A DNA stretch of 64,000 nucleotides from NCBI GenBank assembly GCA_001447805.1, contig CP013099.1, forward strand, positions 1 through 64,000, written 5' to 3'. The notes beneath the pieces are model-generated. The model made no database searches, was not told where the DNA came from, and was given only the letters and a program-made list of their open reading frames with translations. The position numbers and the translations under genes are program-made. Shown here in pieces: positions 20,259 through 29,975 of the stretch (position 1 is the first letter of the stretch; every line of letters starts with the position of its first letter). Source of the stretch: Candidatus Tenderia electrophaga (GTDB taxonomy: Bacteria > Pseudomonadota > Gammaproteobacteria > Tenderiales > Tenderiaceae).

Positions 20259-20663
20259 ATGTCGGAGAGTCGGGTCGAGCCGATTACCATCAAGGGAAAC
20301 GAATCGTCCGCCAGTGTCGGCGAGCTGCATACACGCAGCTTCACACCGGCGGAGCGCATGGCGCGCGCCGGCAAGATACTGGGCGTCGCCTGGCTGCTGG
20401 CGCTGATTACGCTGTTCATCCCCATCGCCCATTTTGTTCTGGTGCCGCTCTTTGGCATCGGCGGGCCGATTATGGCCTTCCTGCGCTACCGCGTTGAAAC
20501 CGTGATGGAAAAGGCCCACGGTGTGTGTCCCGAATGCGAGCAGGCCGTGGATATTCAGTTGGATCCCGCAGATAAACTACCGAAATGGACCTATTGCCCC
20601 GCCTGTAACAAACCGCTGCAACTGATGTATCATGGCGGGCCGACCACAGCTCCGGAAAAATAG
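20259..20663 (+). CDS. Membrane protein with C-terminal zinc ribbon
   Basis: 134 residues; strong ribosome-binding site GGGAGGGGA before the ATG. Polar N-terminus of about 35 residues, hydrophobic hairpin ILGVAWLLALITLFIPIAHF and VLVPLFGIGGPIMAFL, then a zinc ribbon with two CxxC pairs (VCPECEQ near 90 and YCPACNK near 113). Family not recognised. A 33-codon membrane peptide gene begins 2 bases after the stop, suggesting a two-gene operon divergent from asmA. Confidence 0.75.
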   Translation: MSESRVEPITIKGNESSASVGELHTRSFTPAERMARAGKILGVAWLLALITLFIPIAHFVLVPLFGIGGPIMAFLRYRVETVMEKAHGVCPECEQAVDIQLDPADKLPKWTYCPACNKPLQLMYHGGPTTAPEK

Positions 20664-27798: not shown

Positions 27799-28563
27799 GT
27801 GATGATAGAGCTGTATCTTACCAAGATTCTCAAGAGCCTGATCTTCCCCCCGGGCGGATTATTGCTGCTGTGGTTGCTGGGCCTGCTGCTGCTGAGACGC
27901 TCCGTGTTACTGGCCAAGACGCTGCTGTGGGCTGGGCTGGCCGTTGCGTATCTGTTATGCACGCCGCTGGTGTCGGGACTGTTGTTGCAACAACTGGACG
28001 TCTATCCGGCCCTCACGCGGGAGCAGATCGAGCAGGCGCCGGCGCGCGCCATCGTCGTGCTGTCGGCCGGGCGTTATAAAGACGCGCCGGAATACGGCGG
28101 CGATACGGTGGGTAATCACACCCTGGTACGGGTGCGCTACGGCGCCCATTTGCAGCGCTTGAGCGGCCTGCCGGTGCTGGTCAGCGGCGGCCACGTCTTC
28201 GACAAGCAGGGCGCCAGCCTGGCGCAAGTGATGGCTGACAGCCTGCGTAACGATTTTCACATCGGACAGGTCTGGCTCGAAGACAAAAGCCGCACCACGG
28301 CGGAAAACGCCCGGTTCAGCCGCGATCTACTGCAGCAAAAGGGAATCGATACGGTGTTTCTGGTGACCCATGCCATCCACATGCCGCGGGCGGTGGCCAT
28401 GTTCGAACAGGTCGGGCTGACAGTGATTCCGGCGCCCACCCGTTTTTACGCCGCCGAAGGCGGCTGGTTGGTTCAGCTCCTACCCGAGCCCGGGGCGATC
28501 GTGAATTCCTACATGGCCCTGCATGAGCTGGTGGGACGGTTCTGGTATCGGTTGCGCTACTGA
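27799..28563 (+). CDS. DUF218 (ElyC/SanA/YdcF-like) membrane protein
   Basis: 254 residues. Two N-terminal TM segments (about 16-30 and 38-58), then a DUF218 domain: ARAIVVLSAGRYKDAPEYGG, LPVLVSGGHVFDKQGASLAQ, WLEDKSRTTAENARFSRDLL, VFLVTHAIHMPRAVAMF. In ElyC this family influences peptidoglycan/undecaprenyl metabolism. Divergent from hemW; its 3' end meets the terminator of the first predicted small RNA. Confidence 0.9.
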   Translation: MMIELYLTKILKSLIFPPGGLLLLWLLGLLLLRRSVLLAKTLLWAGLAVAYLLCTPLVSGLLLQQLDVYPALTREQIEQAPARAIVVLSAGRYKDAPEYGGDTVGNHTLVRVRYGAHLQRLSGLPVLVSGGHVFDKQGASLAQVMADSLRNDFHIGQVWLEDKSRTTAENARFSRDLLQQKGIDTVFLVTHAIHMPRAVAMFEQVGLTVIPAPTRFYAAEGGWLVQLLPEPGAIVNSYMALHELVGRFWYRLRY

Positions 28564-28569
28564 GTCGGT

Positions 28570-28687
28570 AAAAAAAATGCGCACACGGGACTGATTCGTC
28601 TTTGGGGGGAGGGGGGGAGGAGATAAAGACTCGCCCCGTGTGCGCCAACAAGAGATAACTATGTTTACTACGGTTGTTACTATGCCA
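28570..28687 (-). ncRNA. Predicted twin small RNA 1 (C-rich loop)
   Basis: About 118 nt on the minus strand; ends inferred. -10-like TATATT/TATTAC at about 28694-28700. The 5' linear part GGCATAGTAACAACCGTAGT is shared with copy 2 and is followed by TTATCTCTTG (partly anti-Shine-Dalgarno). Then a long stem: outer GCGCACACGGG / CCCGTGTGCGC, inner GTCTTT / AAAGAC, with apical loop ATCTCCTCCCCCCCTCCCCC, and a run of eight T for termination (28577-28570). No ORF with coding character. Relative to copy 2 the outer stem has a C-G for U-A compensatory change. Confidence 0.6.
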
Positions 28688-28693
28688 ATATCG

Positions 28694-28699
28694 TAATAT
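28694..28699 (-). promoter_or_regulatory. Putative -10 of twin small RNA 1
   Basis: AT-rich hexamer (TATTAC, overlapping TATATT) aligned with the -10 of copy 2; no clear -35, so an activator may be needed. Confidence 0.35.
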
Positions 28700-28823
28700 A
28701 AATGATAATAGAAATATTTTATCGAATGTATAGATCATGATTGATCATATGCCCTGCGCAGCCGGGACGAACAGATTCGGCCGCCCGCTGTGTTCCGCGT
28801 CACGGACAGGTAAAGACGACGAT

Positions 28824-28941
28824 AAAAAAAGTGGCGCACATGGGTTTGGGTTGTCTTTATGGAGGTTGGGGGGGGAGGAGATTAAAGACCCCCATGTGCG
28901 CCAAAAGGAGATAACACGTTCACTACGGTTGTCACTATGCC
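28824..28941 (-). ncRNA. Predicted twin small RNA 2 (C-rich loop)
   Basis: About 118 nt, minus strand. TATAAT at 28953-28948 is a perfect -10; a -35 is not evident. 5' part GGCATAGTGACAACCGTAGT, then TTATCTCCTTTT, which is complementary to a strong Shine-Dalgarno. Outer stem GGCGCACATGGG / CCCATGTGCGCC, inner GTCTTTA / TAAAGAC, apical loop ATCTCCTCCCCCCCCAACCT, then seven T at 28830-28824. Head-to-head with the LysR-family gene at 29019, the usual geometry of a LysR target. Confidence 0.62.
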
Positions 28942-28947
28942 GAAATC

Positions 28948-28953
28948 ATTATA
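28948..28953 (-). promoter_or_regulatory. -10 element of twin small RNA 2
   Basis: TATAAT on the minus strand, 7 bases before the inferred RNA start; the region between here and the LysR-family ATG at 29019 would hold regulator binding sites. Confidence 0.45.
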
Positions 28954-29018
28954 TAAATAATAATAGAAAGTTTTTATTATATTGATAGTATATCGTCTAT
29001 ATCAGTAGGTGGCCGTGA

Positions 29019-29975
29019 ATGATCAAGATCCGCAACGCAACCTTTCGTCAGCTCCAGGTGTTTGAATCCATCGCCCGAAACGGGTCGTATACCGAGGCGG
29101 CCGCGGAACTGCATCTGACCCAGCCGACCTTGTCCATGCAGGTCAAGAAACTCACCTCTATCATCGGCATGCCCCTGTTCGAGCAGATCGGCAAGCGTAT
29201 CTCTCTGACACCGGTGGGGCAGGAATTACTCAAGACCTGCCGCGCCGTCTTCGCCTCTCTGGATGAATTCCAGATGACCATTTCCGATATCAAGGGCATC
29301 AAGAAGGGGGATCTGCGCATCTCCGGCGTGACCACGGCCGAATACTTCGCGCCGCGCATCCTGGGCGATTTCTGTAAGAAATATCCGGGCATCAACGTTA
29401 CCCTGGAAGTGACCAACCGCCGCCGGGTGCTGGAGCGGCTGGAGGACAATCTGGACGACATCTACATCGTCGGCCAGACCCCCACCGGTCCGGGCATCCA
29501 CGCCATCCCCTTTCTCACCAATCCGCTGGTGATCCTGGCCTCACCCTCCCATCCGCTGGCCAACAAGAAGAACATTCCGGTGGAGGCCCTGGCGCGTGAC
29601 AATTTCATCATGCGCGAGCCCGGCTGCGGCACCTTTCTTACCATGGAGCGCATGGTCAAGGGCGGCACGGTGCACTTTAACTCCAGTATGGCCCTGGGCA
29701 GCAACGAGGCCATCAAGCAGGCGGTGATCGGCGAGCTGGGCATCTCCATGCTCTCCGTTTACGCCCTGGTGCACGAGATCAACAGCGGCGAACTGGTGGT
29801 GCTGGATGTGGAGGGCTTTCCGGTGGAGGACGTCTGGTACCTCTGTTTTCCCGAGGGCAAGAAACCCTCGGTGGTGGCCCAGGTGTTCACCGAGTACATG
29901 CTGCAGGAGGGCCGCGATCTCACCCTCAGCTCCCTGCCCGCTTCATGGAAAGAGAAGGACAAATATAATCACTGA
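29019..29975 (+). CDS. LysR-family regulator, CbbR-like
   Basis: 318 residues. Winged HTH at the N-terminus (FRQLQVFESIARNGSYTEAA, LHLTQPTLSMQVKKL), then a periplasmic-binding-protein-like effector domain with KKGDLRISGVTTAEYFAPRI, DDIYIVGQTPTGPGIHAIPF, GSNEAIKQAVIGELGISMLS. The GVTTAEYFAPRI and PGCGTF features are those of CbbR regulators of Calvin-cycle genes, but no cbb gene is in the window. AGGTGG is 6-11 bases before the ATG. Divergent from predicted small RNA 2 and overlapping hrpB by 7 bases at the 3' end. Confidence 0.85.
   Translation: MIKIRNATFRQLQVFESIARNGSYTEAAAELHLTQPTLSMQVKKLTSIIGMPLFEQIGKRISLTPVGQELLKTCRAVFASLDEFQMTISDIKGIKKGDLRISGVTTAEYFAPRILGDFCKKYPGINVTLEVTNRRRVLERLEDNLDDIYIVGQTPTGPGIHAIPFLTNPLVILASPSHPLANKKNIPVEALARDNFIMREPGCGTFLTMERMVKGGTVHFNSSMALGSNEAIKQAVIGELGISMLSVYALVHEINSGELVVLDVEGFPVEDVWYLCFPEGKKPSVVAQVFTEYMLQEGRDLTLSSLPASWKEKDKYNH

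Follow-up and report, generated by a model that had tools for sequence, protein, structure and literature searches.

In the Rhizobiales, the Hfq-binding small RNAs AbcR1 and AbcR2 (114–121 nt) are tandem homologues encoded beside the gene of the LysR regulator VtlR/LsrB (PMC7486931, PMC8844928). VtlR/LsrB activates one of the two siblings, AbcR1 (PMC7486931, PMC8844928), and its site at abcR1 extends from -61 to -49 (PMC8844928). In the Gammaproteobacteria, the pairs OxyR-OxyS and GcvA-GcvB each consist of a LysR regulator and a small RNA that it controls and that is transcribed divergently from it; the most distal regulator sites lie at -66 (OxyR) and -65 (GcvA) (PMC5002191). Two further systems resemble the present one in the RNA itself. 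The 115-nt sX13 of Xanthomonas is strongly structured, and its C-rich loops act on G-rich motifs close to the start of translation (PMC3771888); the tandem siblings NmsRA and NmsRB of Neisseria carry anti-Shine-Dalgarno motifs and control central metabolism (PMC5362039). CbbR regulators, which belong to the LysR family, are known to activate the genes of CO2 fixation; their sites have been described as T-N11-A/TNA-N7-TNA (PMC2942843).

The locus studied here lies in a window of 64,000 nt (the whole stretch of DNA analysed) from Candidatus Tenderia electrophaga. Like AbcR1/AbcR2, it encodes tandem sibling RNAs beside a LysR gene, and its two siblings share an operator. However, the pair is found outside the Alphaproteobacteria, the regulator is of the CbbR and not of the VtlR type, and the operator differs from the LsrB box GCAT-N3-TG-N3-T. 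Furthermore, only AbcR1 is LysR-driven in the AbcR system, whereas both copies carry the operator here. OxyR-OxyS and GcvA-GcvB differ in having a single RNA of unrelated sequence, and another LysR branch and signal. The strongly structured RNAs with accessible C-rich loops recall sX13, which in contrast has three hairpins and is Hfq-independent, and NmsRA/NmsRB are under the stringent response instead of a divergent LysR. As in CbbR-RuBisCO control, a CbbR-type LysR stands divergent from its (here putative) target, with sites of the T-N11-A/TNA-N7-TNA type (PMC2942843) and the same promoter layout, but the divergent target is a small RNA pair and not the cbb genes. The original prediction knew of no described family for these RNAs, and this was borne out: the region had no match to any of 4,227 Rfam models at the gathering threshold, nor did positions 28500–29020 up to an E-value of 1. 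By analogy, the pair may work like VtlR-AbcR, OxyR-OxyS and sX13, yet without an Rfam match. We assign a probability of roughly 80% to our best model, in which the siblings are trans-acting small RNAs that serve the neighbouring CbbR-type LysR as its dedicated output and whose loops block Shine-Dalgarno regions; no transcript, binding or target data are available.

A strand reading of positions 28300–29200 revealed two minus-strand units of ~103 nt at ~28672–28570 and ~28927–28824, the places where two copies had been proposed. In each, the 5' end is conserved, the stem is long, the UCUCCUCCCCCC loop is fully accessible, and a terminator U-run closes the unit. The LysR-proximal sibling A (28824–28927, predicted start ~28926) and the LysR-distal sibling B (28570–28672, predicted start ~28671) were delimited by alignment, constant -10 spacing, structure and covariation, with the U-run as the end. 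The copies are 79% identical, and no third copy exists in the 3.76 Mb genome.

The original prediction had taken GGCATAGT as the shared 5' end, which gave RNAs of 118 nt with starts near 28687 and 28941. We read GGCATAGT as the -10 element instead, because its distance to CGTAG is a constant 14 nt with a variable stretch between. GGCATANT-like elements stand exactly 14 nt before CGTAG in all ten intact copies of the genus. CATANT would thus be the -10, with a discriminator after it and transcription starting at about the G of CGTAG; this start is inferred and was not measured. The transcripts therefore probably begin near 28926 (A) and 28671 (B) and are ~103 nt long. The minus-strand -10 elements, both CATAGT, are located at 28934–28939 (A) and 28679–28684 (B), with the same constant spacings in both: 14 nt from GGCATA to CGTAG and, in related promoters, 12 nt to an upstream TTTATA block.

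Folding of both copies was better than that of dinucleotide-shuffled sequences (z = -3.66 and -2.98). The outer stem comprises 11 bp in each, with arms at 28891–28901 and 28834–28844 in A (28834–28901, minus strand) and at 28635–28645 and 28579–28589 in B (28579–28645, minus strand). The whole is a terminator hairpin with a very large apical part, which a simple terminator scan missed. The compensatory change noted before between the copies (CACACGGG/CCCGTGTG versus CACATGGG/CCCATGTG) is real, and many further ones occur in relatives; the LysR-adjacent copy of genome G007, for example, has GTGCGTATGGG/CCCATACGCAC in place of the GCGCACATGGG/CCCATGTGCGC of the genus. A covariance model (R1) built on the ten genus copies retrieved copies in further genera. 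In an alignment of 19 copies, 98.3% of the stem cells were paired and 11 of 17 pairs showed double-sided changes; none of 500 shuffles matched the observed covariation score, and slid controls scored far lower. This alignment was fitted to the structure model, and the shuffles ignore relatedness. When the outer-stem arms of the 19 copies were read directly from the sequences, 204 of 205 cells were paired, and none of 5,000 arm permutations reached this value. Homologues without stem covariation would have refuted the original prediction; in the relatives examined, covariation was found. On this comparative evidence, the RNA structure is under selection, and the proposed sibling pair of structured RNAs with anti-Shine-Dalgarno loops is upheld by the covariation across 19 copies, the loop accessibility and the lack of a conserved reading frame.

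The C-rich anti-Shine-Dalgarno loops, AUCUCCUCCCCCCCCAACCUCC in A (28861–28882) and AUCUCCUCCCCCCCUCCCCCC in B (28604–28624), both on the minus strand, have predicted unpaired probabilities of ~0.9 or more. Hfq is encoded in the genome. In a genome search, strong G-rich sites before ATG were no more frequent than in a reversed-pattern control (4 versus 4), and pairing of the loops with the RuBisCO start regions was weak. Loop pairing at -17 kcal/mol or better was obtained for the start regions of two of the 45 window genes. Strong G-rich start regions, partly kept in relatives, were found for cytochrome c4 (GGGGGGGAG before ATG) and for the gene after the ccoO/fixO gene in the cbb3-oxidase operon. 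Both were picked by pattern and are only candidate targets. As a separate observation, the cytochrome c4 start regions of several relatives (L136–L140) contain runs of four to seven G. Within the window, the best loop complementarity of the 45 start regions belongs to a 134-aa frame without Pfam match at 20259–20663 (GGGAGGGGAGG, -25.8 kcal/mol).

The missing enrichment of perfect target sites would also fit RNAs that are real but sponge-like, the loop being a decoy that titrates an RNA-binding protein without any pairing to mRNA. A protein could bind C-rich loops of a generic kind, and it is the loop composition that is conserved while the exact sequence drifts. Nevertheless, distant copies too retain CUCC(U)CC, which is complementary to the Shine-Dalgarno sequence, and they do so in two separate hairpins, a feature in line with known antisense RNAs (PMC3771888); we consider a pure decoy unlikely. 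The distant relatives concerned (L030, L031 and L034) have two hairpins per RNA with C-rich loops. In the RNAs of genome G008 (L029:2500-2913), an additional CCUCCUCCCCC segment is present on the 3' side beside the apical one.

The gene divergent from the RNA pair (29019–29975, plus strand) encodes a CbbR-type LysR regulator as judged by NCBIfam, Pfam and a phylogenetic tree; both this gene and its operator had been missed by the earlier reading of the sequence. The protein contains the Pfam domains HTH_1 and LysR_substrate, and its best NCBIfam match is CbbR with 236.8 bits. As this score is below the cut-off of 450, the signal of the regulator may differ from that of classical CbbR. Three more CbbR-like proteins (43–45% identity) and two RuBisCO large-subunit genes are encoded in the genome. 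Two of these paralogues are located near the two RuBisCO genes, and the LysR gene at 29019–29975 is not divergent from cbb or RuBisCO genes. In the tree, RNA-adjacent LysRs were separated from RuBisCO-adjacent CbbRs with one change per label (SH-aLRT 93). No LysR relative was found among the viral contigs searched. At three other loci (L066, L080 and L107), CbbR-like LysR genes of a neighbouring group are divergent from a small DUF2892-like membrane protein, assigned by eye, and not from RuBisCO genes or RNAs.

A CbbR-type operator is present at the promoter divergent from the LysR gene according to a weight-matrix layout test, without binding data. The matrix was derived from 22 promoters of the RNA family, which follow the pattern TCTAT-N7-ATAA ... 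TTTATA-N12-CATANT with nearly invariant length. The predicted operators occupy 28952–28990 (A, two mismatches to the consensus) and 28697–28735 (B, exact match) on the minus strand, and at up to three mismatches the pattern occurs at only two sites in the genome of the window, both before these RNAs. The recognition part is predicted at about -60 relative to the RNA start, a position similar to that of the LsrB site at abcR1 and of the most distal OxyR and GcvA sites. The layout is shared with most RuBisCO promoters of CbbR loci, which scored above all 40 first-order Markov shuffles when 220 bases on the divergent side of other CbbR-type genes were scanned.

Autoregulation from a shared intergenic region is common among LysR proteins (PMC5002191), and the operator-like block could serve this purpose only, the linkage to RNAs that the LysR does not regulate being historical. 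We regard this as less likely still, since copy B and the G007 RNA copy away from LysR (L015:1501-1601), where there is no LysR promoter, carry the full operator-promoter block at the same distance from the -10. Additionally, RNA and LysR orthologue are jointly present or absent in the window's own family of genomes: nine genomes have the RNA together with a close orthologue of the LysR, and two (G006 and G010, with completeness of only 85% and a rated 100%, respectively) have neither. The view that the units are mere transcription terminators, DNA palindromes or small-peptide genes draws on the U-run after each hairpin and on short frames in some copies, but it is barely tenable given a conserved promoter and 5' end for each unit, a conserved and accessible loop, and frames and stops that vary across copies, with peptide coding unsupported and the in-stem ATG missing from the intact copies W_B and G4_B.

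Under the preferred reading, in which the siblings are the output of the LysR and act on Shine-Dalgarno regions, the trigger would be a change in the metabolite or redox signal of the regulator. The LysR is inferred to bind the ATCTAT-N7-ATAA recognition site and an activation site on the TTTATA side, and this binding would turn on transcription of both RNAs from the CATANT -10 promoters. Each RNA would fold into a terminator-like hairpin that displays the pyrimidine loop UCUCCUCCCCCC, and the loop would block the translation of target mRNAs, possibly with Hfq, by pairing with their G-rich Shine-Dalgarno regions. Selection on the RNA structure, loop accessibility, promoter layout, LysR linkage and co-occurrence, and operator specificity are established as far as genome comparison can do so; the signal, the use of Hfq, the targets and the direction of regulation are inferences, as are transcription and LysR binding. 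The same holds for two elements of the original prediction, an action antisense to ribosome-binding sites and a dosage- or condition-tuned role of the pair.

The pair suggests a carbon-fixation sensor that works through RNA, because the sibling RNAs adjoin a CbbR-family regulator and carry the promoter type of that family. In the literature searched, we found no paper that connects a CbbR with a small RNA that it controls. If the reading is true, the control of autotrophy would gain a post-transcriptional arm from a conserved branch with an operator reserved for two sibling RNAs, and this branch would parallel VtlR-AbcR and OxyR-OxyS independently. A more specific scenario, which we offer as a doubtful possibility, is that a CbbR-family branch swapped the RuBisCO operon for the RNA pair, and that a carbon-fixation sensor now represses translation of cytochrome c4 and the cbb3 oxidase, balancing electron flow against CO2 fixation. 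With its strong covariation, the pair would also provide a new RNA family open to direct search and testing.

Among 80 named loci with LysR relatives, all ten with ~60% identity or more have an RNA-like unit with a C-rich loop upstream; L033 was assigned by eye, and the L028 locus is truncated at a contig end. Most of the remaining loci adjoin RuBisCO genes; this group of 43 includes the paralogue in the genome of the window itself. A class-wide model search of 369 genomes with strict filters gave matches in three genomes only, all from the family of the window. Support was weak for a grouping of the A and B copies by position (bootstrap 51, SH-aLRT 0, 4 of 500 shuffles as low), which merely hints at a duplication that predates the genus. 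Individual copies showed peculiarities. In genome G005, the 5' stem arm is gone from the LysR-proximal copy (L006:1223-1338), which looks decayed, and the distal copy is intact. In G009, a contig break falls inside the C-run of the LysR-proximal RNA (L028:1-162), and its apparent 3' end (L016:1-40) opens another contig, which carries the second copy.
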